Shown: positions 1,533 through 33,270 of the stretch, piece by piece | Position numbering within the stretch: position 1 is the stretch's first letter | Layout: every line of letters starts with the position of its first letter | Assembly: GCA_031263525.1 (NCBI GenBank) | Contig: JAISFP010000027.1 | Span: 1 to 33,622 of the forward strand | Length of the DNA stretch: 33,622 nt | Origin: Deltaproteobacteria bacterium | Lineage (GTDB): Bacteria; Desulfobacterota; Desulfarculia; Adiutricales; Adiutricaceae | Reading direction: 5' to 3' | Notes under the pieces: generated by a model | What the model saw: only the letters and a program-made list of their open reading frames with translations | Told to the model about the DNA's origin: nothing | Databases searched by the model: none | Position numbers and translations under genes: made by a program

Positions 1533-3374
1533 ATGACTGAGAAAGACAAGACACAAGCCAACGGATCGAATCTGAAGCGTCTATTGCGCGATTCTGCTTC
1601 ATTTTCAGATTATATTGGTTCCGGTTCAGTCTTTGTCGACAAGACCGGTTTCATCTTCGATCTTCTGAACAGTAGCCCCGAACGCATGTTTTTTCTCTCC
1701 AGGCCGAGAAGATTCGGCAAAACTCTTCTGCTCGACACTATCCAGCATATAGCCAAGGGAGACAGGACCCCTTTCGCCGGCATGAAGATCGGAGAGTCCG
1801 ACTACGTCTGGGAGAGGTATCCTGTCATCCGGCTCACTTTCAGCCAGTTCGAGTCTGACCCGCTGGCGTTCAGGAGAAAGCTTCTGAAAAAATTTGACGA
1901 GATTGCAAGAGAGCACAATCTTGATTTGGAACCTGCCAATTCCGTATCAGACATAGATAGCGTCATTTCGAAACTGTCAAAAAATTATCCTCCATCACAC
2001 ATGCCGAACATGTCTCAGAGCACTGAGCAGGAACCGGCGAACGTCATGCTCCTCTTAGACGAATATGACTTTCCACTGCTTGGTAGCCTCGACAATCCTG
2101 ACAGTGCAGAAGAGCTTCGCAACATGCTCCGTACATTCTACAGCACTATAAAAAGTTGCCGTGACAAGATACGTTTTCTCTTTGTGACGGGAGTAACTAA
2201 ATTTTCAAAACTCTCTATTTTTTCAGGAATGAACAGCATTATCGACATATCTTTGGATAAAAATTATTCTTCCATATGCGGTTTTACAGAAGAAGAAATA
2301 GAAACTAATTTTCATGGCCATATACTCAAAGCTTTGTCTGACATGCAGGAAGACGGAATTTTTAAAGATGACTCAACATATTCAGATTTCATGAAACAGC
2401 TTGAATTATGGTACAATGGCTATTCATGGGATGAAACAACTAAAGCCTGCAAAGAAAAGACTAAAGTTTACAATCCTTTTTCTGTCATCAATTGCCTTTA
2501 TAACAAGGAATTCAACCATTACTGGTATGACTCCGGAACTTCTCCGGCCGCATACAAACACAGGCTTAACCCTGAGACCTATGTCAACATAATTTCCAAC
2601 AATCTTAACTCAGGAGAACTGGCACCTACAGAAGACCTGAAAGGCTTGAAAAGCGAGTCTTTTCTGTTCCAGACCGGATACGTAACCATAGCAAAAACCC
2701 AAAAATCACTTATGTATAAAAACTATATTCTTAAATGCCCTAACAACGAGATTAGCTACGCGATAGCCAAGGATTTCTGCAATCTGGATTCCCCTTTCCC
2801 AGGATTTCAAGGTTCCATCAATGAAAAATATGGTGCTTTCGTTAACGCATTTGAGGCATCCGATGATGAGGAATGCGCCAGGCTCTTTTCATCACTGCTG
2901 GACAAATTTTCGCTTCACATGAATTCTCCTGCCGAAAACGTTTATCAAGCCATTCTTTACATCCTTCTCAACTCACAGGGTTTTCGCGCAACATTTGAAC
3001 AACCGCTTGGGGACGGAAGGATTGATATCTCCTATGTTTCTCCATCAGGCATCCAGGCAGTCATAGAAATCAAGCGCGTAAGACTAAGCAGTTCTGAGAA
3101 AGTTTCTAAGCTGACGGAGGCGCCGCCTTCCGGTTCTGCGTTGCCTGGATTCCAGGAGCATCCTGAACACGTAAGAAATGGCCTGGAGAAAAGCATTGCC
3201 GATGCAGTCAGCCAGATACTCGCGAAAAAGTATCTCCGAGCATTTTACTTGGAAGGCGAAACCCGCGCTTGTGCCGTTGCCGTTCATGGATGGACTGACA
3301 GCATGTTCCGGTTCTACAACGTAGACTGGAATTCTAGGACCATTTTGCCTCCCATGCATAAGGAGCAACCCTGA
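1533..3374 (+). CDS. AAA-ATPase-like protein with C-terminal PD-(D/E)XK nuclease-like domain
   Basis: 613-aa ORF. VFVDKT and LSRPRRFGKTLLLDT (P-loop-like), MLLLDEYDFPL (Walker B), C-terminal GRIDISYVSPSGIQAVIEIKR. SD-like GGGAG upstream of the ATG. Confidence 0.9.
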   Translation: MTEKDKTQANGSNLKRLLRDSASFSDYIGSGSVFVDKTGFIFDLLNSSPERMFFLSRPRRFGKTLLLDTIQHIAKGDRTPFAGMKIGESDYVWERYPVIRLTFSQFESDPLAFRRKLLKKFDEIAREHNLDLEPANSVSDIDSVISKLSKNYPPSHMPNMSQSTEQEPANVMLLLDEYDFPLLGSLDNPDSAEELRNMLRTFYSTIKSCRDKIRFLFVTGVTKFSKLSIFSGMNSIIDISLDKNYSSICGFTEEEIETNFHGHILKALSDMQEDGIFKDDSTYSDFMKQLELWYNGYSWDETTKACKEKTKVYNPFSVINCLYNKEFNHYWYDSGTSPAAYKHRLNPETYVNIISNNLNSGELAPTEDLKGLKSESFLFQTGYVTIAKTQKSLMYKNYILKCPNNEISYAIAKDFCNLDSPFPGFQGSINEKYGAFVNAFEASDDEECARLFSSLLDKFSLHMNSPAENVYQAILYILLNSQGFRATFEQPLGDGRIDISYVSPSGIQAVIEIKRVRLSSSEKVSKLTEAPPSGSALPGFQEHPEHVRNGLEKSIADAVSQILAKKYLRAFYLEGETRACAVAVHGWTDSMFRFYNVDWNSRTILPPMHKEQP

Positions 3375-5253: not shown

Positions 5254-5511
5254 GGTGTTCCGTCTTCTGTTTTGATGCCGTTCTCGCCCGGGCCGGGACG
5301 GCCCGGTGACCGGGAACGTTTAGGGGGCCCGCCGCCAGATCCTGGGGAAGGCTGACGGGGAGGGACGAGGGGGAGGGGGACGCCTGGAAGGCGGGGAGAG
5401 GAGAGGATGCCGGAAACTCGCGGGAAGTCGAGGAGAAGCGGGAAGGTGTCCCTGAACGGCGCGGCCACGGTCGTGACCGACCGCCAGCCGGGCCTCCAGC
5501 GGTCCGGAGGG

Positions 5512-5763
5512 TCCGCCGGGGCCGGCCCAGGAAAGGGGGGGCCGCCGCGACCGGCCTCGGAAAGGGGAGGCCGCCGCGACCGGCCCAGAAAAGGGGGGCC
5601 GCCGGGGCCGACCCAGAAAAGGGGGGGGCCGCCGCGACCGGCCCAGAAAAGGGGGGGCCGCCGGGGCCGGCCCAGAAAAGGGGGGCCGCCGGGACCGGCT
5701 CAGGAAAGGGGATAGCCGCCGGGGCCGGCCCCGGAAAGGAGGGTCCGCCGGATCCCGGCCCCG
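5512..5763. repeat. ~29-bp GC-rich minisatellite, about 8 units
   Basis: (G/T)CCGCCG anchors at 5541, 5570, 5598, 5628, 5657, 5685, 5715, 5744 (spacing 28-30). Unit approximately CCGGCCCAGAAAAGGGGGGCCGCCGGGGC. Confidence 0.85.
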
Positions 5764-5766
5764 GCG

Positions 5767-8700
5767 TCACCCGGAGGCGGCCCCGTCCCCCTCGCCGGGC
5801 CCGGAGAGCTCGCCCTCGGCCTCCTGGACCCGGGGGGGGATCCACTTGGCCAGGGCCTGGAAGAGCTCGTTCACGTTGATGGGCTTGTTCACGTGGTCGT
5901 TCATGCCGGCCTTGAGGGAGAGCTCACGGTCGCTGGACATGGCGTGCGCGGTCATGGCCACTATGGGGAGCCGGTCGAAGCCCAGGTCCCTTATGGCCCT
6001 GGTGGCGGTGAGCCCGTCCATGACGGGCATCTGGATGTCCATGAGGACCAGGTCGAAGGGCTCCTTCTGGACGATGTCCACCGCCTTGGCCCCGTCCGGG
6101 GCGATGGTTACCGTAAAGCCCGCGTTGCCCAGGATCTTGGAGGCCACGAGCTGGTTCACCTCGTTGTCCTCGACCAGGAGGATCCTGGCGCCGCGGATGG
6201 CCTTCACCGCCTCGCCGCCCTTGGCCGCCCTCTTCTGCACGGAGCGGGCCGAACGCCCGAAAAGCTCCATCAGGCAGTCGTTCACGGCGGACTCCGTGAG
6301 GGGCTTGTTCAGGACCTTCCGCACGCCGAGGGACCTGGCGCTCGAAAGGATCTCGTCGCGGTTGTAGGCCGTTATCATCACGACCAGGGTGCTCCTCGTG
6401 AGCCCGGACTCGGCCGTCATGCGCCTTATGGTCTCTATCCCGTCCAGGCCGGGCATCTTCCAGTCCACGATTATGAGCTCGGGCTTGGGCGAGGCGTTCT
6501 TCAGGTACATCACCGCCTCGTCCCCCGAGCTCACCGTGGTGACGGACTTGACGCCTATCTTCAGGAGCGACTCCCGCAGGAGCTCCAGGGCCGTGATGTT
6601 GTCGTCCACGGCGAGCACGTTCACGTTGCCGAAGGAGACCTGGGGGACCCCGTCCGCCTGGGGGGCCTCGCTCACCGTGAAGCGGGCCGTGAAGCTGAAG
6701 GTCGAGCCCTTCCCTGGCTCGGACTCCACCCAGATGCCGCCCCCCATCATCTCCGCCAGGCGCTTGGAGATGGTGAGGCCCAGCCCCGTGCCGCCGTACT
6801 TGCGGGTTATGGAGGTGTCCGCCTGGGTGAAGGCCTTGAACAGGGTCGACACCTGCTCCTGGGTGAGGCCTATGCCCGTGTCCCTGACCGAGAATCTCAG
6901 GGTCACCTCGCTGCCCTTCATGGGCGGGGCGTCGCGGTCCTCTCCGGGGCTCCGGGGATGCCAGGACCCGTCCCCGTGACTCCCGGCACCGGCGGCAGCC
7001 GCCGCGGGTCCGGCACCGCCGGCAGATCCGGCACTGACGGCGTCCGCGGCCTCCGGGGCCGTCCCGGCTCCCCCCGCCGCCAGCGCGGCGCCGGGAAGGA
7101 CTGCACCGCCCGGCCGGACGGTACCGCCCGAAAGGCCGTGAGGCCCCGCGCCATCTGCCGGAGGTCCGGCGGGGGCAGGCTGAGCGGACGCGGACGGCCT
7201 GGCCGGGGGAAGGACGGGAGACGGCGGGGCCTTGAAGGCCCCCTCCCCGGAGGGCCCGCGGTCGATCTCGGCCTTGACGCTGACGCCGCCCTTCTCGGTG
7301 AACTTGAGGGCGTTAGAGAGCAGGTTGTTCAGGATCTGGCCCAGGCGAACCTGGTCGCCGGTGAGCCAGCGGGGGACGTCGGGGTCGATGTCCAGGGTGA
7401 AGGCCAGGCCCTTGGCCCGGGCGCTGTCGCCCAGGAGCTTCACGGCGGACTTGGCGAGGTGCTCGACCGAAAAGTCCGTCATCTCCATCTCGAGCTTGCC
7501 GGCCTCAATCTTCGAGAAGTCCAGGATGTCGTTAATTATTCGCAGGAGCGCCTTGGCAGCGACGGAGATGCGGTTCAGGTACTCGCCCTGCTGCTCGTTC
7601 AGCTCGGTCTCGAGCACCAGGTGGGTGAGACCCAGTATCGCGTTCATGGGCGTGCGGATCTCGTGGGACATGTTGGCCAGAAACTCGCTCTTGGCCCTGG
7701 CGCTCTCCTCGGCGAGCTCGCGGGCGAGCCTCGCGTCCCGCTCCTGCTCGATCATCTTGTAGATGTCCTGCTCCATCTTCTTCTTCTCTGAGAAGTCGAA
7801 GTAGCCCCCCATTAGCCGGACCGGCGTCCCGCTCTCGTCGCGCTCCACCGCGCGCCCGATGTTATAGGTCCAGATGTAGTGGCCGTCCTTATGCCTGAGC
7901 CTGCCCTCGCAGGCGAAGACGTCCATGTCGCCGTCCAGGCACATCTCCAGGGCGGCCTTGGCCGCGGGCTCGTCGTCCGGGTGGACCAGGCCCTCCCATT
8001 CCTCTATCGTGCCCTTCAGGTCACCCGGGCCGTAGCCCAGGATCTTCAGGAGCACGTGGTTGTAGCGAATGGTCCCCCGGGCGAGGTTCATGTCCCAGGT
8101 CCCGAAGCGGGCGGCCTCGAAGACCAGCTCCATCTGCTCCTTGTTCTCCCTCAGCGCGTTCTCGATAGCCTTCTGGCGCGTGACGTCCAGCATCACGCCC
8201 AGGAGCCTCTCCGGGTCGCCCTCGGGCCCGAACTCCACCACCCTGCCCCGGTCCTGAGCCCAGACGATGGACCCGTCCTTGTGGACCATCCGGTAGTCGG
8301 CCTCGTAGAAGGGGGTCAGGCCCTCCAGGTGGTCGGCCAGGGCCTTCTGGGCCTTCTCCAGGTCCTTGGGAAGCACGAAGCGCTTCCGGTCGGCCAGGGT
8401 CGTCCCCAGATCCTCCAGGGCGTAGCCCATGGTTGCCGCCCACTGGGGGCTGTAGGCCACCTCGCCGGTCTTGAGGTCACAGTCCCAGGCGCCCAGGTTC
8501 GCTGCGGCTATCACCGCGGAAAGCCGCTTCTGCTCCAGGTCCAGCGCCCTCCCGGCCGCCTCCTTCTCCTGGAGTGCGCGGGTGAGCGCCTGGCGGGCCA
8601 GCCTCTTCACGTGGATGTCCTGGACGACCCCCGCGAAGGTCAGGGTGTCCTGGTCCTGGCCCCGGACGAGCTCGCAGTTCAGGTTCACCCAGCGCCACTC

Positions 8701-9033
8701 GTCGCGCTTGTAGCACCAGAGCCGGTGCTCGAGCTCGTAATGGTCGTTCCGTCCCTGGATGAGCTCGTCCAGGCCCGACAGGAACACGCCCAGCTCGTCA
8801 GGATGCACCCAGTTCCCGATGTACTCCTTCAGGCTCATTGTCTTCCGGGAGTGGTCGTCGTCCCGGTTGCCGAGGAGCAGGAGGAAGCTCTCGTTCACCG
8901 TGATCCTGGCCTTCTCGACATCGTCCTCGTAGAGCGTGAGCTCCCACAGCCCTATCCCGGAAAGGAACAGGTTGTTGACAAGGGCGTCCAGCGTCAGGCG
9001 CGGAGCGCGGCTCTCGGGGCCGTCATCAGGCAT
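5767..9033 (-). CDS. Hybrid sensor histidine kinase: multiple PAS/PAC domains, HisKA, HATPase_c, two REC domains
   Basis: 1088 aa. PAS-type repeats (e.g. [34 protein letters not shown]), H-box [23 protein letters not shown]-box [27 protein letters not shown]1 LAVDDN...[12 protein letters not shown]2 [11 protein letters not shown]...[13 protein letters not shown]. Confidence 0.95.
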
Positions 9034-10616: not shown

Positions 10617-12377
10617 TCAGAACTGGTCCACGAACTCCCCTATGACCTTGAAGCCTCCCCTCCAGAAATCCTCGTCAAGGGGCCCCACGCCGGCGGCGGC
10701 TAGTATGTCGGCAGGGGACGCGCCCCCTCCCCTGGAGAGGATCTTCATGAGGCGGTCGGCGAAGGGGGGACCCTCCTGCTCGTAGAGGCGCCAGAGGCTG
10801 AAAACCAGGAGCTCGCCGAAGGTGTAGGCGTAGACGTAGAAAGGTGTGTGGAAGAAGTGCGGGATGGCGGCCCACTCCCAGCGGAACTCGGGGGGGAGCT
10901 CCATGGAGTCCCCGAACTGCTCGGAGAGGTTCCGGAAGTAGGCCTCCGAGAGCTCGTCCGGGGTCGCCCCCTCCTCTATCATCCTGTGGGCCTCGACCTC
11001 GAAGAGGGCGAAGAAGGCCTGCCGGCCGACCGTGGCGTAGGCGTCATCCAGCACGTGGCCAAGGAGCGACGACCGGCGCTTCGGGTCGGTCTCCCTGGAG
11101 AGGAGCCTCTTGGCCAGGAGCATCTCGCCGAAGGTGGACGCGGACTCCGCCATGGGGAGCGCCGCCTGGAACTGGAATATGCCCTCCGGGGCGGCCAGCT
11201 GGGAATGCACCGCGTGCCCCAGCTCGTGGGCCAGGGTGAAGACGTCCTGGAGCCGCCCGTTGTAGCTCATGAGCACCCACGGCGTCTCCCCGGCCAGAAC
11301 CGACGCGCAGAATGCCCCGCTCCTCTTGCCGGGCATGAGCCTGGCGGTGAGGCGGCGGTCCCCGGCCACCTTCATGGCCAGATCGGCCATCCTGGGCGAG
11401 AAGGCCCGGAATGCCCCGTCGACCTCCGAGACGGCCTCGGCGAAGGGGATTGCCTGCCCGGACTCGGGGAGGACGGGCGCGTAGAGGTCGTAGCGGGAGA
11501 GCCTGGGCATCCCCAGGAGAGCGGCCTTCTTGGCGAAGTAGCGGCCGAAGACCCTGGGGGCCTCCTCGCGGGACACCGCGAGCAGGCTCGCGACCGCCTC
11601 GTCGGGCAGATCGTTGCGCCTGTTCCTGACCGACTGGGGCGTCCGGTAACCGCGGAGCAGCACGTTCTCCAGCCTCCAGGATCGTGCCAGGTTCTGATAG
11701 ATCTGACCCAGGACGGGCCCCTCTGCCGACCAGACGCGGTAGAACTCCCGGTACGCCCCCTTCCTGTGGAGGGGGTCGTGGGACCGGAAATGGACCGAGA
11801 ACTCCTCCCGGCCCAGCTCCCTGGGCTCCGGAAGGAAATGGGCGAGGAAGCGGTAGCGGGAGGTGAGCGAGTCGTAGAGGGTGACGAGGGCCTGGGAGCC
11901 AGTCACCTCCTTCAGGTTCACGACCCTCTCCTCGGCCTCGGAGAGCGCGAAGGGCTTCATGTCCCTTATGCGCCCGAGGAAATAGGCGTGGCGGGCCACG
12001 CTGGCTATGTAGGCCGCGGCCCGCTCCTCGGGCAGGTCCTTGAACCAGAGCTCGAAAAACAGGGTCGCGTTCGAGAGGTCGGCCGCGGCCTCCTCCACCA
12101 TCCCCAGGAAGCTCACGACCTTCTGGTCGGACGTGTCCTGGGAGAAGGCGAGATCCGCAAAGCCCGCTATCTTCTCCAGCTGCTCCTGGACGTGCTCGAG
12201 ATCCGCAAGCGCGCTCCGGAACTCGTCAGAAGAGAAGGCGGGATCCCCGAGTCTCTCCCGCCACTTGGGGAAGCTCGACGCGAGCTCCTTCAGCTCGCGC
12301 ATGTCCCGCCCCAGCTCTTGCGAGCCAAACGTGTAGAGCTGGCTCAGGTCCCAGTGCGGCGGAAGGCTGTCTGTCAT
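10617..12377 (-). CDS. pepF: M3 family metallopeptidase, oligoendopeptidase F-like (catalytic motif intact)
   Basis: 586 aa. FTLAHELGHAVHSQL zinc motif with downstream AESASTFGE; C-terminal AAGVGPLDEDFWRGGFKVI. SD-like GGAG upstream of the start. Confidence 0.93.
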   Translation of the reverse strand: MTDSLPPHWDLSQLYTFGSQELGRDMRELKELASSFPKWRERLGDPAFSSDEFRSALADLEHVQEQLEKIAGFADLAFSQDTSDQKVVSFLGMVEEAAADLSNATLFFELWFKDLPEERAAAYIASVARHAYFLGRIRDMKPFALSEAEERVVNLKEVTGSQALVTLYDSLTSRYRFLAHFLPEPRELGREEFSVHFRSHDPLHRKGAYREFYRVWSAEGPVLGQIYQNLARSWRLENVLLRGYRTPQSVRNRRNDLPDEAVASLLAVSREEAPRVFGRYFAKKAALLGMPRLSRYDLYAPVLPESGQAIPFAEAVSEVDGAFRAFSPRMADLAMKVAGDRRLTARLMPGKRSGAFCASVLAGETPWVLMSYNGRLQDVFTLAHELGHAVHSQLAAPEGIFQFQAALPMAESASTFGEMLLAKRLLSRETDPKRRSSLLGHVLDDAYATVGRQAFFALFEVEAHRMIEEGATPDELSEAYFRNLSEQFGDSMELPPEFRWEWAAIPHFFHTPFYVYAYTFGELLVFSLWRLYEQEGPPFADRLMKILSRGGGASPADILAAAGVGPLDEDFWRGGFKVIGEFVDQF

Positions 12378-12414
12378 TGGGTCAAACTCCGTGACTGGTC
12401 CCGCGCGGGGCGCG

Positions 12415-13450
12415 GGCCGGAAGGTGGCGCGGTTGGCCCCGGAAGGGCTGGAAGTCCGGGGCGGGCGGATAGACCGCCGGAGGACGGCGGAAAGGGCGGG
12501 AAGCAGAGCCGGGGAGGCCGGAAAGGGCGAGCAGCCGTCGGCGACCGGGCATGGGCCGAAAGGCAGAACAGGGGAGGCAGGAAAGGGCGAGCAGCCCGTC
12601 GGAGGCCGGGCGAGGGCCGGCAGGCAGACCAGGTGAGGCAGGAAAGGGCGAGAAGCCCGTCGTAGGCCGGGCTAGTGCCGGAAGGCAGACCCGGGGAGGC
12701 CGGAAAGGGCGAGCAGCCCGACGGAGACCGGGCGCGGGCCGGTAGGCAGCCCCGGAGAAGCCGAAACGGGCGAGTTACCCGTCTGAGGCCGGGGGAGGGC
12801 CGGAAGGCGGAGCCTGGGAGGGCGGAACGGGCGAGTAACTCGCCTGAGGCCGGGCGAGGGCCGGAAGGCAGAGCCGGGGAGGCCGGAACGTGCGAGTAGC
12901 CGGCCGGAGGCCGGAGGCCAGGGCTGGTAGGTAGACACGGGGAAGCCGGAACGGGCGAGTAGCCCGTCGAAGGACGTCGGCGAGGGCCGTAAGGCAAGGC
13001 GGAGGAGGCCGGAAGAGACGGAAAAGCTGTCTGATGCCGGCGGCGAAGGCCGGAAAAAGGAGCCGGGGCGGCCGGTACGGAGGAAAAGCCTGTCGGAGGC
13101 CGGCGACGAGGGCCGGAAAGAGGAGCCGGGCGGTCGGGACGGACGAAAAGCCTGTCGGAGGCCGGTGGCGAGGGCCGGAAAAAGGTGCCGGGGCTGCCGG
13201 GACGGACAAAAGGCACGTCGGAGGCCGGTGGCGAGGGCCGGAAAGGGGAGCCGGGGCGGCCGGGACGGGCGAAAAGTCCGTCGGAGGCCGGTGGCGAGGG
13301 CCGGAAAGGGGAGCCGGGGCTGCCGGGACGGACGAAAGGCACGTCGGAGGCCGGTGGCGAGGGCCGGAAAGGGCAGCCGGGGCGGCCGGGACGGGCGAAA
13401 AGCCCGTCGGAGGCCGGTGGCGAGGGCGGGAAAGCAGTACGGCGGATGCC
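12415..13450. repeat. 61-bp / 63-bp two-phase minisatellite array
   Basis: Anchor G(T/C)CGGAGGCCGG-like at 12476, 12537, 12598, 12659, 12720, 12781, 12842, 12903 (steps of 61), then 12966, 13029, 13092, 13154, 13217, 13280, 13343, 13406 (steps of 63, one of 62). Confidence 0.9.
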
Positions 13451-14089
13451 GGAACGGGCCGAAAAGGGAAGAAGAAGTGGGGTACGGAACGAGTGACAAG
13501 CTCTCGGGGGCCGGCGGAACAAGCCGGAAGGCAGGGCGAGGGTTGCCGGAACGGTAGAATGCCCCTTCAGTGGCCTGGCGTTGGCCGGAAAGCAAGGCGG
13601 AAAAGGCCGACAGGGCGGAAAGCCAATCGGGGACTGGGGCACGGACAGGAACAATGATGAATGAAAACGGAGATGAATGCAAGGATCAAAATTTACGCAC
13701 AGTGTCAATATAAAAGTATATGTTTAATAAAAAAAATGCCTCTGATGTCCGCGATTCGCTTGCCTCTCCAACATGTATTCCGCGATGCCTGTCAGTCCGG
13801 AACCGTCTGATAAAAACTGTCTGAAATTTTGTGAAAAGGCTGAACCATTCCTCCGGACCCGACCGTCAAGCATCGTTACAGTTTATCCAGACATATCGGG
13901 AGATAAGGCGTGAAAAAGTCGGAAAAAGGAAGGAGGAGTAAGGAATTACGGCACCATGTCTCACCACACTTTCCAACAGGGATGTGTCATTCTCATGCCT
14001 CCGCCAGTCCGAGGGCGGTGAAATCGACTGTATGAAGCTGCGAACTTGAAATATTACCATTTCACGGAAACATGAACTAATGGGGCGGT

Positions 14090-14744: not shown

Positions 14745-16385
14745 GAATAGTCGTGAAAGATCTCACAGCAAGCAAGAGAAATTCTCAATTGAATTGTAGC
14801 ACCCTCTCCAGAAATTCTTATCAAGAGGTCCGGCCCCGGCTTCCCCAGGATGTCCAGAGGGGGGGCAGTGCCACAGGCGGCGAGGATCTTCAGGAGCCGC
14901 TCAGCGAAGGCCGGGACGCCTGACTCGTAGCTCCCCCAGAGCCCGAAGGAAAGTATGCGTCCGAACATTTCTGAGTAATTGAAGGTTAGACACTGAAAAA
15001 ACCAGTTGTCGGCATTTTATGAAAAATATTTCATGTCGTCGCAAGAAATCACGTCCCCGTACTGCTCAAGGTACCGCTCCTTGAAGACAAGGAGCACATG
15101 CTCGAAGATCTCTCCGCGATCGGCCAGAGCCATAAACGTGATCTCTATGCGGAACAGAAGGACGGGGTACAGGCTGCAGAGCGCATAAATGTCGGTCATG
15201 AAATGAATGAAAAAGGCGTTCCTGTTTTCGGCTCCAATCTTGTCCCTCATGAGCGACCAGGCCAGGCGAGTCTCCCCGAACGATCTCGCCGTGTCGATCA
15301 GCAAATGGGACGCCGTGGACAAGCGATAGTTGAACGGGCCTGACAGCATCATGTTGGCGGAAACATTAGTCCGTTCGCAAGGCAGAAGACATCCGTCAGT
15401 CCCGAGCCAGCATTAGTATTTACCCATGCAGCCTCGCCCGGCACTCCCATGTGGGAAACGAAGGATGTCGACTCATTCACGTCACTCGGCGGCACCGTGG
15501 ACAGCCGGCCCTCGGAACATACCCTGCGCGCCAGTGGCTCCAGGACTGGATAAAATTGGCCAAAAGACTTGAGTACGGCCTCAAGGCTCTTGCGGTAGCT
15601 CATGAGCCGGGGTTTCCAGGGAACATCCAGAAACTTCTGCTGCGAAAGAGTGTCGTTCAAAATAAGTATTGCCTTCCGCAAGAAAACTTCCTGAAGGACC
15701 GAGCCCCTTCCTCCCTCGCCACCCCGAACATGGCGTCAACAACTTCGGAAGGGATATCGCATTTCAGATCCAGCGGATAATGAGTCCTGTTACGGCATTC
15801 CGTCTTGTCTGTGTCTGCCCAGTCGATTACGGCATCTATGAACCTATCTACGCTCTGGCCGTCGAATGGGCGAACCTGCCGTCCTTAGCCTCCCGGACGA
15901 GCTACATCCTGAGCTTCTGGATGTGAGCGGTGTCGGAGGGCACGGTCGGATCAGTCTCGGTAAATTCAGGCCCTATACGACGAAGACAGTCCGTGTGGCC
16001 GGTTGCCGACTTTGCGTACAATTCACTCCTTTTTTCGGAAAGATTCATCCACATGGCCCTGAACTGGGATATGGAGTCAGCAATATCGTCCAGGATAGAG
16101 TCGGCATTCTGAGTGACATCACAGGACAGATAAAAACCCTGGAGTCTGCCTGAGGCAATATTTTAAATCGTTTCGTACCTAAACATGAGAACGAGAATGT
16201 TGTCCAGTTGCTCAACCAGAGACGAAAACTCGCAGAAGAACTATCTGGATCAGAAAATCCCTTGAACATCTCAACAAAATCCTCGAACCTTTCATCCGTG
16301 TCTTCTCCCTACTGCATAAATCTATCATTGACCTGAAGCAGGAGGCTGATCATCTCCCAATGCTGACTGCCGTTGTAAAATCCCA
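14745..16385 (-). pseudogene. Decayed M3 oligopeptidase F-like paralog
   Basis: Fragments in different minus-strand frames collinear with 17230-18849: ILSFGLWGSYE...AERLLKILAACGTAPPLDIL; FMALADRGEIFEHV...EQYGDVIS; LTDVFCLANGLMF. DNA at 15705-15770 and about 16350-16385 matches the corresponding parts of the 17230 gene. Confidence 0.82.
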
Positions 16386-17229: not shown

Positions 17230-18849
17230 TCATCTCATGTCCCCGAACCTTTCGATGGCCCGGAAGCATCCCCTCCAGAATGACTCGTCCAGGGGGCCCA
17301 CGCCCGCTTCCGCCAGTATGTCCAGGGGAGCAGCGCGACCGCCGGCGGCGAGAATGCAGAGAAACCGATCCGCGAAGCCGGAACCCTCCTTCTCGTAGAT
17401 GTCCCAGAACCCGAAGGCGAGAATCTTTCCGAAAAGATAGTTGTACTCCAGGAATGGAGGCCTGAAGAACAGTTTCTCGACGAAAGTCTCGAAGCTGAAG
17501 GAATCCTGGTACGAAAGGGCGTCACCGAACTGTTCTGCGAACCGGAGCTTAACCTCCTTCATGACCTGTCCGAGAGACTCTCCCCGGTCCCCCAGCGCCC
17601 TGAAGGCATCATCCTGGGCGACGACAGTCGTGACATCGGTGCAGCATTCGAGATAAACCTCATACATGAACTGACAGATCACGGAGTTCCTGCGGGTAGC
17701 ATCGCGCACTTTCCCGAGGAGCGAGCGGTACGCGAGCAGTCCCCCGAAAGCCTGTACCGCATCGTACAGGAGCTGGGGGGGAGTGGAATGAAAGCCACCG
17801 GTGCTACCCACATGCATGAGGTAGGCGGCACGCATGAGCGTCTGAGCCAGCACGATCAGGCTTTTCAGGTCGTCATTCGGCGCAACGTAAACCCAGGGAG
17901 GCTCGCCTTCAGGGGACTGGATGGTACAGGATACGATGGAACTGGACTCCGGCAGGCGAACCATCGAAAGACGCCCCTCGTACACCATCCTGGAAACGTG
18001 TTCCTCAAGGATCGGGGCGAATTCGCCAAAGGATTCCAGGACCAGGGAAAACGCCATCCGGGAAGGCACGCGTACCGGTTTCCCGGGGACAGCGGCAAAT
18101 CTCTCCAGACCCAACAATTTGTACCCAAGAAGACCGGCCTTCCAGAGGAAATGCTTCCTGAAGGCCTTCGGTCCCTCCTCCCTCGCCACGCGAAGCATGG
18201 TGTCCACCACCTCGGAGGGAATCTCAAATAACTGATCGTCATGTTCGTGCGGGCCGGGCCGCTCCCCCGGCTTCCCCAGACGGGTCCAGTCGGCAACTGC
18301 CTCGAGAAACTCGGTCGGCAGGCCCTTCCGGCGCTGACCCCGCCTTTTCGCCTCCTGAGCCTTCTTCAGCTCTGCCGACAGACTTGAGGGAACCAAGCCA
18401 TCGAGTCCCGGTGTGTCGTCGGTAAGGTTGACCATCGCGCGGCGCATGCAGTAAGCGTCCTCCGGCACAGCCTCCAGGAGCGCGTCCGCCCTCTCCTGCG
18501 GAAGAGCCTGCATGCGGCTCATGAACAGTTGCACTGCCTTCCCGAACTCCTGACTCGCGGCCGATGCCTTGCTGAGGAGGATCCAGGGCACGGTGAAGCC
18601 CGGGAGCTCCATGTCGCCAAGTTCCTCCACCGACTCGTACCTGCGCCGGCGACCTTCCAGGACCCTAAGACGCAAAGTAAGATCGCGAAACCACTCCCCG
18701 CCCTTTTCAGGATCATCCAGACCCGCGAGAGACTCGGTAAAGTCGCGGACCATGTCCAGCGACTCACGCACTTCCCGCGCGAAACCTTCCTCGCCCTCGG
18801 GAATAAGGCTGGACAGTTCCCAGTGCGGCTGGCCTCTGTACGTTTTCAT
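17230..18849 (-). CDS. M3 family oligoendopeptidase F-like paralog lacking HExxH (predicted pseudoenzyme)
   Basis: Start MKTYRGQPHWELSSLIPEGEEG preceded by GGAG; matches pepF N-terminus LPPHWDLSQL and C-terminus AEAGVGPLDESFWRGCFRAI. The region aligned to LAHELGHAVHS reads LAQTLMRAAYL. Confidence 0.85.
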   Translation of the reverse strand: MKTYRGQPHWELSSLIPEGEEGFAREVRESLDMVRDFTESLAGLDDPEKGGEWFRDLTLRLRVLEGRRRRYESVEELGDMELPGFTVPWILLSKASAASQEFGKAVQLFMSRMQALPQERADALLEAVPEDAYCMRRAMVNLTDDTPGLDGLVPSSLSAELKKAQEAKRRGQRRKGLPTEFLEAVADWTRLGKPGERPGPHEHDDQLFEIPSEVVDTMLRVAREEGPKAFRKHFLWKAGLLGYKLLGLERFAAVPGKPVRVPSRMAFSLVLESFGEFAPILEEHVSRMVYEGRLSMVRLPESSSIVSCTIQSPEGEPPWVYVAPNDDLKSLIVLAQTLMRAAYLMHVGSTGGFHSTPPQLLYDAVQAFGGLLAYRSLLGKVRDATRRNSVICQFMYEVYLECCTDVTTVVAQDDAFRALGDRGESLGQVMKEVKLRFAEQFGDALSYQDSFSFETFVEKLFFRPPFLEYNYLFGKILAFGFWDIYEKEGSGFADRFLCILAAGGRAAPLDILAEAGVGPLDESFWRGCFRAIERFGDMR

Positions 18850-19643
18850 GGGGGATACTCCATAATCAGGAAAGGGATGGCGGCAGAAGAGGTAAAACGG
18901 GTGTGGCGGCAAAGCTGATGGACAGAAGGGCAGGGCAGGCACCTCGAGAACGGAGGCACGGCAGGCAGCCAGGGGACGGACGACAGGGCAAGCGGACGCT
19001 TCCGGGCACTCCAGCTCACGGACTGCCGGACTGGCGCGGACCGACAGCCCAGCATTCTGCTACATAATGCGCCCGTATCTTAAAAAAAGCAAGCGGTAAG
19101 CCCCCGGGCAGACTTCACCGAGCTTTCCCGCGTTAGTCCGACACCATACCTGATATCCTGGCACACCCCCGGCAGAACCGACCCATGCAACATAACCTGA
19201 CACCTGAACGGGAAGAGCGTCCTCGGCCAGGAAAATTAAAAAAGGCCGGATGGCCCCTGCGGAAACGCCGCCACGCTGCCTTTTCATAATCCATGGTTCT
19301 TCGAGTCGTACATCTGGAGCGTTGCGGCCTGGCGACTCCGCCTGGTCCTCGTCGACTGGTCTCCGAAGACGCCGGCACGCCTGAACCTGGTACGCCTGTC
19401 CTGTTTCTACCGCGTGAATCCATCTCCGGATGTTCTCGTCAGAGGACCGGCACCCTCGTTTCACAAGATCTCAACAGGAAGGGTCCGATGCTCATTCCGT
19501 CACCGCCGACAGAATCCTCATGCACCCTGAATGTGATGTCAAATCACTCGGTCTCGGAGGCTTCTCGATGGTTTCATGAACGATAACATAAAAGAGGAAT
19601 GAAGAAAGATAAAGATTAGACAAGGATTAAATAAAAGGGAAAT

Positions 19644-20886: not shown

Positions 20887-22623
20887 TCAGAGTGTTTCCA
20901 CAAGTTCGAACAAGGATTCAATACCTCTGTTCCAAAAATCCTCATCATCTAAAGACATGCCGCACTTATCAAAAATATAAGTCGGCGGCGCTGATCCGCC
21001 TCTCCTGAAGATATCGACAATCCGCTCAACCCAATTCTCCTCAGCTCCGTCGGCGGACCGCCAGAGGGACAGGGCCGCAACCTTGCCCATGACACGTTCC
21101 CAGGCGAAGTAGGGAGGACGGAAAATAGAGAGCTCCCTTGTCCACTCCCAACGAAAATCGCGAGGTAACAACATGCTGTCACCGATCAATTCCGATGCGG
21201 TGTACAGGTACTCTTCGCCCAGCTTTTCAGGGGAATCGACTGCATCCACGCAGTCCAATCCGTGAGCCGCTATCTCCAGACGTGCAAGCGCCAGTCCCCG
21301 GCCGATATCGTTCCATGCCCTGTCGAGCGCGAGACAGACGATTGCAACGCGCCGGGACGGATCCTTTTCCCTGGCTATGAGCCTTCTTGTCAGGAGCTCC
21401 TCCCCGAAGGCGCGTCCACACTCTGCCAGGATCGGCCCAGGGACGAACTGGCTGTCGCCAACGCCCGAAGATAGCTGAAGATGAGCAGCATGGAACAGCA
21501 ACCTGGCCAGCTCCAGCGCGTCTTCAGCGCCGCCCTGCCAGTTCATGAGGACCAGAGGGGACTCGCCAGGGCTCATGGGACGACACTGATTCCTGCCCGG
21601 CCAGACTGCCGAAAGAGATCCCCGGTCAAGAACTCTGGACGCGAGCCCGGTCAGCGAAGGCGAAAACTCACCGAAGGCCGCTTCCGTCTCGCAAAGCGCC
21701 TCACGGAAACTGAGAGGTGCCATGCCGCCGTTCACGGGGGCAAATATATCATGCAACTCCAGTCTGTCCTTGTTCATGAGCACTTTTTTACGTCTGAAAT
21801 ATTCCGAGAACGTAATGCTCGAACCTCTGCTAACCGCTTCTATGATTGCCATCATCAACCGCCTCTCAAGATCGTATACAAGATTTCTGACGCTCATGGG
21901 TCCGTAGCAGTCTTTCAGGCCGGTAATGGCGTTAATCCAGTTGAGTGCGGTTTCAGCATAGACCCTGCCCAAAGCCGGCCCTGGTCGGGTCCATACCCTC
22001 AGAATCTCGTCCCACGCGGAGCGTCTGACCGTCTCGTCCTCCGAACGCAGGCATGCCTCCAATTTTTCAAGCGAGTCTTCCTTTCCCTGGGAAGGATTTG
22101 CCAGCTTGTAACTCCGTCCCGACATCGTCTTCAGATAAGCCGGCGGAATCGACCCCCCGCCGATTTCCCCCGATCTTTCAGGGTATATAGACGGATCGAA
22201 TTTCCACGTCCGTGCCAGGTAGTACCAGTATCCGGGGACATGCTCCATAAGTCTTAGAGCAGTCTTTTTCGGCTGAGACCTCCACAGCCACTCGAACACT
22301 CCTGTCACGGCCTCCACCTTTCGAGCGGCGGCGTATGCCTCCCGGAGGCTCTCCGTAAACGTGTCATCAGCTTCCCATTTCACGTCACAGTGGCACACGA
22401 TCTCCCTGTGCCTTCTCGCGAGACTGCCGACCGCGTCCAGCTCGTCCATCAATTTACGAAATTCGTCCTTCCCTCCGGGGTAGCTGAAATTGAGCCCGCT
22501 CCTCCACCCTATGGAATCCCTGACGAAGCCCTCCATGACCTGCGTCTCCCGCCTGATCCCGTCCGCCCCGGCAGAACAGATAAGATTCAGGTCCAGCTGC
22601 GGCAGCCCGTCTGGTATTTTCAC
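20887..22623 (-). CDS. M3 family oligoendopeptidase F-like paralog lacking HExxH (predicted pseudoenzyme)
   Basis: 578 aa, GTG start with upstream GAGG. C-terminal LLPRDFRWEWTRELSIFRPPYFAWERVMGKVAALSLWR aligns with pepF [37 protein letters not shown]. The HELGH position reads LARLLFHAAHLQL. Confidence 0.85.
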   Translation of the reverse strand: MKIPDGLPQLDLNLICSAGADGIRRETQVMEGFVRDSIGWRSGLNFSYPGGKDEFRKLMDELDAVGSLARRHREIVCHCDVKWEADDTFTESLREAYAAARKVEAVTGVFEWLWRSQPKKTALRLMEHVPGYWYYLARTWKFDPSIYPERSGEIGGGSIPPAYLKTMSGRSYKLANPSQGKEDSLEKLEACLRSEDETVRRSAWDEILRVWTRPGPALGRVYAETALNWINAITGLKDCYGPMSVRNLVYDLERRLMMAIIEAVSRGSSITFSEYFRRKKVLMNKDRLELHDIFAPVNGGMAPLSFREALCETEAAFGEFSPSLTGLASRVLDRGSLSAVWPGRNQCRPMSPGESPLVLMNWQGGAEDALELARLLFHAAHLQLSSGVGDSQFVPGPILAECGRAFGEELLTRRLIAREKDPSRRVAIVCLALDRAWNDIGRGLALARLEIAAHGLDCVDAVDSPEKLGEEYLYTASELIGDSMLLPRDFRWEWTRELSIFRPPYFAWERVMGKVAALSLWRSADGAEENWVERIVDIFRRGGSAPPTYIFDKCGMSLDDEDFWNRGIESLFELVETL

Positions 22624-26396: not shown

Positions 26397-28319
26397 TCAC
26401 CTGCTGTGCCGTCTCCTCTTTCCAGCCCAGACGACCTCCTTGAACCTCACCATCACGTCTGAAGTGCCATAAACGGCCATGGCTGCCGCATATACTTCGG
26501 CACCCTCGGAAAGATATTTCTTGGCGTAATTTTTTTTAATTAACTGATTGAACGCTGCCGATATCATTTTCTCAAGCCGTCCTTTCACGTAATCGCTATG
26601 CTTCCCGTGTTCGATCTTCTCGCCTGCCGGGGACTCGTCCAAGCCATTGTGAGCAGGATCAGCCTTCTCATGCTTAATCTCGATTGCTACCCACCCGTTT
26701 CCGGGAACCTGGACAGCCAGATCGGCTCTGCCTACGTCCGAAGACGATTCAGGAATGGTCAGCTTGTTCCCGAGTTCAAGAAGAAGCTGAATAATGGTCC
26801 TGAAAAAAAATTCGTTAACGCTTAACGAGTTAATCTGCTTGACTGTGCTACCGCTGGCGACAAGGCTGTCTAAACTATTAGGGCAACCAGGACCGTACTG
26901 CACGAGGCCGGCAAGAATGGACGACAGGAATCTTTCACATTCGGCCTCGTCATGTGCTGCAAAGGCGTGCAGAAGATTAATATATTTTTCATTTAAATTT
27001 TGGCTTGCTTTTGAAGGATCTTTTTCAGGAAAAAGCAGGTTCGCCAGGAGCTCGAGCCTGATAGAGTCCCTGATTTCGTTGTTGGGAATTTTCAGTTGAT
27101 ATTGCGTGTCTGTGCCTGATCCAGTGATACCGTTGACAGAGACTGTGAGATACCCTGCCTGCATGAGGAGCACGGTATCGTTCAGTCTATTAATATACAT
27201 GAGAGGTAACGACTCTTTGAATGAAAGATCCTTGGAGAACACCTTGAAGTAATCAGTTCCATTATTTGCAATACGGCTCGTGAGAAGAGATATACCTGTA
27301 TCATACCAATAGTTATTGAATGATTTTTTCTGAAAAAAACTCATCACAGATAGAGGGTTGAGGACCACCGTCTTGGCATCCCAGGTGTATCCGTTGTACC
27401 ACTTAATCATGGTTTCAACCAGATCGGCAACGGACGCATCCTTGCCAAGCTGGCCCTTTTTCTTGAGAGCCGAAAGGGTCGGAGAAAAATATTTAGAAAA
27501 TGATTTTTTAATCTCGTCTATCTTGAAGCCGCAAATACCGGCAAAAACTGGCTCTAGAGTGATGTCCCGAACAGTGTTCATAGCTGAGAACAGGGAAAGC
27601 TCCCTGAATTTTGTTATACCGGTTATCAATACGAATCTAAGGTACTTCGAACATCCTTTTATGGTTGAATAGAAGTCATGTAGCGTGAGTCTTATCTCAT
27701 TACATCTAGCCTGATTCCCAATGTTGGCAATCAGGGGGAAATCGTACTCGTCAATGAGCACGACGACGTTTCTTGAACCGAATACAGACGGAGCCTTTCC
27801 GCTCGCAATCCACTCCTTCCTGTGTTTCCGAGATAAGCTACGGATGAGACTGGCCATGGCACTAGGTGAATTTTTGCTGTCAAGGATTATTTCATTATCA
27901 AGAGCTACCTCCTTGATTGCTGAGAGCAAGTCAGACTCCAAATCGTCCGGCGGGTAAGTCTTGAACCCGGAGTTAAACGAGATTCGAATTACGGGGAAGA
28001 CATCCCACCTTTTTCCCATGAGTTTCTTTATCGCCAGGCCGGCAAAAAGGTCCCGTCTCCCCTCAAATATATTTTGTATGGTGTCAAGCAATAGAGTCTT
28101 TCCAAACCTTCTTGGCCGCGAAAGAAAGCATGGCGTGTTAGACCAGGTTCCGGGAGATATCAGCTTGTGGATTAGCTCAGTCTTGTCAACATATACGTAA
28201 TCATTGTTGATTATCCAATCGAAGTTTTCCACGCCCACGCCAAACGGGTCCTTTTCCGGATTCTTCTCAATCACGCTGCAGACCTCCTTCCTCAATGCTG
28301 AACGATCCGACTTTTTCAA
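26397..28319 (-). CDS. AAA-ATPase-like protein with C-terminal PD-(D/E)XK nuclease-like domain (paralog of 1533-3374)
   Basis: 640 aa, TTG start. YVYVDKTELIHKL, FLSRPRRFGKTLLLDT, VVVLIDEYDFPL, GRADLAVQVPGNGWVAIEIKHEK. Confidence 0.9.
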   Translation of the reverse strand: MKKSDRSALRKEVCSVIEKNPEKDPFGVGVENFDWIINNDYVYVDKTELIHKLISPGTWSNTPCFLSRPRRFGKTLLLDTIQNIFEGRRDLFAGLAIKKLMGKRWDVFPVIRISFNSGFKTYPPDDLESDLLSAIKEVALDNEIILDSKNSPSAMASLIRSLSRKHRKEWIASGKAPSVFGSRNVVVLIDEYDFPLIANIGNQARCNEIRLTLHDFYSTIKGCSKYLRFVLITGITKFRELSLFSAMNTVRDITLEPVFAGICGFKIDEIKKSFSKYFSPTLSALKKKGQLGKDASVADLVETMIKWYNGYTWDAKTVVLNPLSVMSFFQKKSFNNYWYDTGISLLTSRIANNGTDYFKVFSKDLSFKESLPLMYINRLNDTVLLMQAGYLTVSVNGITGSGTDTQYQLKIPNNEIRDSIRLELLANLLFPEKDPSKASQNLNEKYINLLHAFAAHDEAECERFLSSILAGLVQYGPGCPNSLDSLVASGSTVKQINSLSVNEFFFRTIIQLLLELGNKLTIPESSSDVGRADLAVQVPGNGWVAIEIKHEKADPAHNGLDESPAGEKIEHGKHSDYVKGRLEKMISAAFNQLIKKNYAKKYLSEGAEVYAAAMAVYGTSDVMVRFKEVVWAGKRRRHSR

Positions 28320-32229: not shown

Positions 32230-32619
32230 CTAGCCCAGCTCCAGGGCCTTCCTCACCGCGGTCATGACCTTCTCCTCGTCATAGGGCTTGATGATGTACT
32301 GCCTGGCACCCACCTTCAGGCAGTGCATCACGGTCCTGGCATCCGACACCGAGGATGCCATGATAATCCTGGAACCGGGGTACTTCTCGAGCAGCTTCTC
32401 CAGCACCTCGGTGCCCCTCAGCTTGGGCATGACGATGTCCAGCGTGGTCAGCTCCGGCCTGAGCTCCTCGAAGAGGACGAGGGCCTCCTCCCCGTCGCAG
32501 GCCTGACCCACCACGTCGAAGCCCTGGCTCTGGAAGAGCTTGAAGAGCATCTGGCGCATCACCGGGGAGTCGTCCACAATAAGCACCCTTTGACCTGATC
32601 CGATCGCCATGTGAGCCAC
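32230..32619 (-). CDS. CheY-like single-domain response regulator
   Basis: 129 aa. VLIVDDSPVMRQ, LTTLDIVMPKLRG, IIMASSVSD, YIIKPYDEEKV. Directly upstream of cheA on the same strand. Confidence 0.92.
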   Translation of the reverse strand: MAHMAIGSGQRVLIVDDSPVMRQMLFKLFQSQGFDVVGQACDGEEALVLFEELRPELTTLDIVMPKLRGTEVLEKLLEKYPGSRIIMASSVSDARTVMHCLKVGARQYIIKPYDEEKVMTAVRKALELG

Positions 32620-32999: not shown

Positions 33000-33270
33000 C
33001 CCCCGCGAAAGCTTCGGACCGGACACCCGCCAACCGGGGGATCTCCCGCCCTGACAACCGCCAACTGAGGAAGCTTACGCCCGGACAGCCGCCAACTGTG
33101 GAAACTACATCCTGGACCCCCGCCAACCGGGGGAGCTCCGGCCAGGACAGCCGCCAACTGTGGAAGCTACATACTGGACCCCCGCCAACCGGGGGAGCTC
33201 CGACCAGGACAGCCGCCAGCTGAGGAAGCTTCAGTCTGGACCCCCGCCAACCGGGCGAGCTCCGGCCAGG
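33000..33270. repeat. ~31-bp (62-bp higher-order) tandem repeat
   Basis: CGCCAACCGG at 33121, 33183 and 33245 (period 62), with CGCCAACTG half-units at 33060, 33090 and 33152. Confidence 0.85.

Follow-up and report, generated by a model that had tools for sequence, protein, structure and literature searches.

We report that the region upstream of the oligoendopeptidase gene pepF, within a window of 33,622 nucleotides (the whole stretch of DNA analysed; contig JAISFP010000027.1 of the Deltaproteobacteria bacterium assembly GCA_031263525.1), carries 16 imperfect head-to-tail units of 61-63 bp at 12475-13467, as seen by TRF, anchor words and unit alignment. These units very likely represent a non-coding GC-rich minisatellite that has grown in the pepF 5' leader, between a promoter-like element and the start codon.

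The pepF gene (10617-12377, minus strand) encodes an M3-family oligoendopeptidase of 586 aa. Its assignment in the initial annotation was correct, given that the product matches PF01432 (E=4e-35) and PF08439 (E=1e-8) in Pfam and has an intact HELGH motif. Orthologs, 74-87% identical, are present in five congeners (G001-G005) with one pepF match in each, and the closest ones belong to the MAGs Deltaproteobacteria Gx485 and Gx481 (87%, 83% and 79% identity). The genome also contains five full-length pepF paralogs that are 27-36% identical to pepF; paralog sites are found in the window at 17230-18942(-) and 20887-22623(-), with a fragment at 14834-15316(-), and also at L128, L129 and L130. The HEXXH zinc motif is gone from all five (e.g. 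ARLLFHAAH and ARQLMKAAY replace AHELGHAVH), and for this reason they are probably pseudo-peptidases.

TRF, which had been proposed as a check of the initial annotation, reports a single array at 12462-13466 (period 63, 16.2 copies, score 764). Together with the anchors and a sliding lag analysis it bears out the description of this region as a minisatellite that switches its period from 61 to 63 bp; the lag analysis places the switch at approximately 12830-12900, in agreement with the anchors. Specifically, the anchors at 12475, 12536, 12597, 12658, 12719, 12780, 12841 and 12902 are separated by seven steps of 61 bp, while 63-bp steps connect those at 12902, 12965, 13028 and 13091 and, again, those from 13153 to 13405. 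Hence the regularity claimed for the left half is exact, and the claim of "exactly 63 bp" for the right half fails once, at a lone 62-bp step (13091 to 13153), which also breaks the frame there. The copies are direct, head-to-tail and derived from one unit within the approximately 10-100 bp that characterise minisatellites. As previously suggested the array starts close to pepF, with unit boundaries from approximately 98 bp off the ATG and related words down to approximately 35 bp.

On the basis of the anchors and the unit alignment the array consists of two blocks: a left block, older and more diverged, of seven 61-bp units (u1-u7; 12475-12901) and a right block (12902-13467) with nine units, all 63 bp long but for one of 62 bp, whose sequence shows a 2-bp insertion when compared with the left block. 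The 63-bp unit corresponds to the 61-bp unit plus two bases within a CCGG..GGC stretch, and the inserted bases are TG in the youngest units and other bases in u8-u11. The mutual identity among u1-u7 is mostly 72-87% (range 67-87%) and among u10-u15 81-97%, and unit pairs from different blocks are 57-79% alike. We consider u8 to be transitional since it combines the length of the 63-bp units with a sequence that is most similar to u7 (81%). The unit matrix thus resolves two subfamilies set apart by the 2-bp indel, in keeping with the two expansion phases that had been proposed. Moreover, the similarity within the pairs u13/u15 (97%) and u12/u14 (92%) equals or exceeds that between adjacent units, which suggests a 126-bp dimer duplication in the right block. 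The end units of the array are decayed. A degenerate repeat-like remainder of the leader (13468-13651), identified by lag analysis and sequence, connects the array with the promoter-like element; its 61-bp periodicity is weak, decayed CTTTCCGGCC words are visible, and degenerate relatives of the motif reach approximately 13640.

One minus-strand frame is without a stop throughout the array, and the stop codon of the resulting 444-aa ORF (12374-13708, minus strand) overlaps the pepF ATG as ATGA. This could be taken as a sign of a repeat protein encoded in part by the array, a reading that we find extremely improbable, and we judge the frame to be spurious. The frame is shifted at each 61-bp unit and broken in the right half by the 62-bp step, neither the 444-aa ORF nor the other long ORFs of the array match Pfam, and the variable columns of the 63-bp block are distributed over the codon phases as 7/4/9, i.e. 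without bias; on these grounds the earlier view of the array as non-coding holds. The array accordingly lacks what is expected of coding repeats: a period that is a multiple of three, substitutions following the codon frame and protein relatives. The strand in the pepF direction is composed of 49% C, 24.5% G, 22% T and 5% A (|GC skew| 0.33), and because A is so rare stop codons are rare in every frame and long ORFs are to be expected. Furthermore, an ATGA overlap arises automatically with every gene that starts with ATG-A, the conserved promoter-like element falls within the 444-aa ORF, and the congeners have no counterpart upstream of pepF.

That selection instead maintains the units as structured RNAs or as binding sites for proteins, e.g. 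as a riboregulator or for nucleoid binding, is very unlikely. A 7-bp hairpin (GACGGGC/GCCCGTC) is possible in several units, but its pairing is kept at 83.7% compared to 83.5% in shuffles and the covariation is no better than in shuffles, so pairing supported by covariation, as expected for a structured RNA, is not seen in the array. In addition, the folding energies of the sense leader equal those of composition-matched shuffles (z between -0.3 and 0.5) and Rfam gave no match. A tRNA search found none. A CRISPR-like array was also considered and rejected, since conservation spans the whole unit and there are no spacer-like columns.

The array is placed between the promoter-like element and the pepF ATG because conserved blocks flank it on both sides. 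On the start-proximal side, local alignment to the leader of the nearest congener, G005, revealed a conserved block (CCTTCCGG..CCTTCCGGCCCGCGCCCCGCGCGG; 12401-12446, minus strand) with a score of 51 and a shuffle maximum of 30, and the word underlying the array unit is present within this block. On the distal side, the best match to G005 is a block with the layout CCTTGCATTC..CCGTTTT..CATCATTG (score 37, shuffle maximum 31), and the distal element is also the best match to G002 (score 29, shuffle maximum 29.5). It corresponds to the conserved promoter-like element, TTGCAT-N17-CATCATTG (31 bases; 13652-13682, minus strand), identified by pattern search and congener comparison. Searching the whole genomes for this pattern with one mismatch allowed, we found a single exact copy in this genome (13652-13682, minus strand) and one in G005 (C346:10701-10731), in both cases upstream of pepF. 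The reversed pattern used as control gave zero matches, as did a variant with 20-nt spacing in this genome and in G005. Related forms occur in G002 (at -292) and G001 (at -188). The element thus stands out in G005 and G002 and less so in G001, and the comparison did not reveal it in G003 or G004. The distance between the element and the ATG is 1,274 bp here compared to 217 bp in G005, and 993 bp of this difference in leader length is due to the array. None of the five congeners has a comparable array upstream of pepF, and a DNA search for the array in their genomes gave short, weak GC-rich matches and no ortholog. Judging from these comparisons the array is an expansion inside the pepF leader, downstream of the conserved promoter-like element.

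The position and conservation of the element at 13652-13682(-) suggest that it is the pepF promoter. The label is based on these two properties because no more than 7 of the 12 sigma-70 consensus positions are matched and the element is left out by a strict promoter scan, which detected no canonical sigma-70 promoter in 12300-13900. Alternatively, the element may be an operator or a conserved upstream site of some other kind. The initial annotation had located the pepF promoter "inside or beyond" the array; most likely it lies beyond, given the conserved upstream element, and further promoters within the array are possible. A promoter between 12377 and 12415, which had been named as an observation that would count against the initial annotation, was not seen. 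Provided that the element is the promoter, the repeat neither overlaps nor duplicates it, the element being single-copy and outside the array.

Taken as a minisatellite grown in the leader, the array may have originated as follows. The ancestral leader would have been approximately 150-220 bp long and already have had short CCTTCCGGCC repeats, of which stretches of approximately 61 bp would have been multiplied by replication slippage or unequal recombination. The 2-bp insertion would then have founded the 63-bp form, whose expansion would have come later, at the end facing the promoter. Transcription from the element, if this is the promoter, would include the array as a C-rich untranslated leader of approximately 1 kb.

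To place the array in its genomic context we sampled contigs from the 6.7 Mb draft genome (121 kb, 13 arbitrary contigs) and from the genus (272 kb), family (174 kb), order (113 kb) and class (252 kb), with the contigs of the genome and the genus being L048-L098 and several class controls having a GC content equal to or above that of the host. Counting TRF arrays with a score of ≥100, the fraction of sampled DNA in arrays is 8.6% in the own genome, 2.9% in the genus, 1.8% in the family, 0 in the order and 0.5% in the class; Markov-shuffled sequence, based on samples of this genome and of two congeners, contained no array with such a score. The density in the own genome, 4.2 arrays per 10 kb, extrapolates to an estimated approximately 2,800 arrays genome-wide. 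Sixty-one percent of the arrays in the host sample have periods divisible by three, and therefore many of the other arrays are probably located in genes. The units of arrays across the genome are largely unrelated to one another. The arrays are strand-asymmetric, with a median |GC skew| of 0.21 compared to 0.08 in other DNA (p=2e-20). The CCGGAAGG core word shows a 2-3-fold enrichment in the genus, compared to approximately 1 in the class controls; we set this enrichment aside as an argument because it is partly a product of the arrays themselves. The pepF array is unexceptional within its genome. Searches of the open-access literature gave no description of the tandem-repeat load in this lineage; termite-gut Adiutricaceae are mentioned in PMC9137090.

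Of the 26 contig ends sampled, five are located within arrays, and hence the true repeat load is probably higher. This also indicates that the assembler struggles with arrays, which is what an assembly artefact of the draft MAG at pepF would call for. We nevertheless regard such an artefact as highly unlikely, since most neighbouring units are told apart by many positions and can hence be ordered, and both flanks of the array are unique and match the leader of the congener. The unit count is that of a single draft MAG, in which copies may have been collapsed (u13 and u15 being 97% identical).

Other repeats in the window include a second diverged array and a 29-bp GC-rich one. The former (33019-33267; periods of 31, 62 and 93 bp) precedes a single-domain response-regulator gene (32230-32619, minus strand) by a few hundred bp and is possibly a second leader array; the latter, with CCGGCCCAGGAAAGGG words at 5509-5751, is located just downstream of a hybrid sensor kinase gene (5767-9033, minus strand). 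The window also has two AAA-ATPase_like/PDDEXK_9 genes, at 1533-3374(+) and 26397-28319(-).

With respect to its role, the most likely reading is that the array has close to none and is largely neutral, i.e. a by-product that is tolerated in a lineage whose tandem-repeat turnover is very high. It is conceivable, at a lower probability, that it acts as a copy-number rheostat in which gain and loss of units in the leader reversibly change pepF expression. Because the conserved element is outside the array, this would have to involve a leader effect, e.g. Rho-dependent termination, which is conjecture: with a sense strand that is C-rich and poorer in G (49% C, 24.5% G, 5% A), more units would mean more Rho loading and premature termination. 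The location of the array between the conserved upstream element and pepF is compatible with such a role, the near-identity of u13 and u15 suggests recent turnover, and there is precedent in the promoter tandem repeats (MIRU-VNTR) of M. tuberculosis, proposed to be phase-variable with the copy number altering expression via the promoter (PMC12817950). On the other hand, the majority of the units are diverged, which is not what a rapidly homogenising array would give; pepF is a housekeeping-type peptidase; a selected RNA structure is not apparent, with folding z near 0 and hairpin pairing as in shuffles; and the many similar arrays across the genome argue against a special role at pepF.

Hence, we favour the largely neutral minisatellite, which can be compared with known systems. 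As for the M. tuberculosis promoter repeats, direct repeats of minisatellite size are located upstream of a gene, but the pepF array is downstream of the promoter-like element, in the leader, and it is longer (16 units), much more diverged and known here from the sequence of one genome. Vertebrate minisatellites are GC-rich, show a purine/pyrimidine strand bias and have subfamilies within an array. The pepF array resembles them in unit length, GC-richness, strand bias and subfamilies; it differs in being bacterial, and an origin at a recombination hotspot is not indicated here. The STAR elements of staphylococci are intergenic direct repeats that vary by species and locus and constitute one interspersed family (PMC3532100); the pepF array likewise consists of intergenic direct repeats, and repeats here differ between species and loci, whereas the units of the arrays across this genome are largely unrelated.

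On its own the pepF array is one more bacterial minisatellite, ordinary in kind. A broader view, which we regard as rather improbable, would be that of a gut Desulfobacterota genus with a genome saturated by tandem-repeat growth, in which leaders, that of pepF among them, gain a kilobase within a genus and serve as quickly evolving rheostats of expression. Because orthology pins the array between the upstream element and the start codon, an effect of leader length can be tested directly. Finally, related bacteria with a comparable GC content carry a far smaller repeat load than this genome, and one may ask which trait of repair or recombination permits the high load here.
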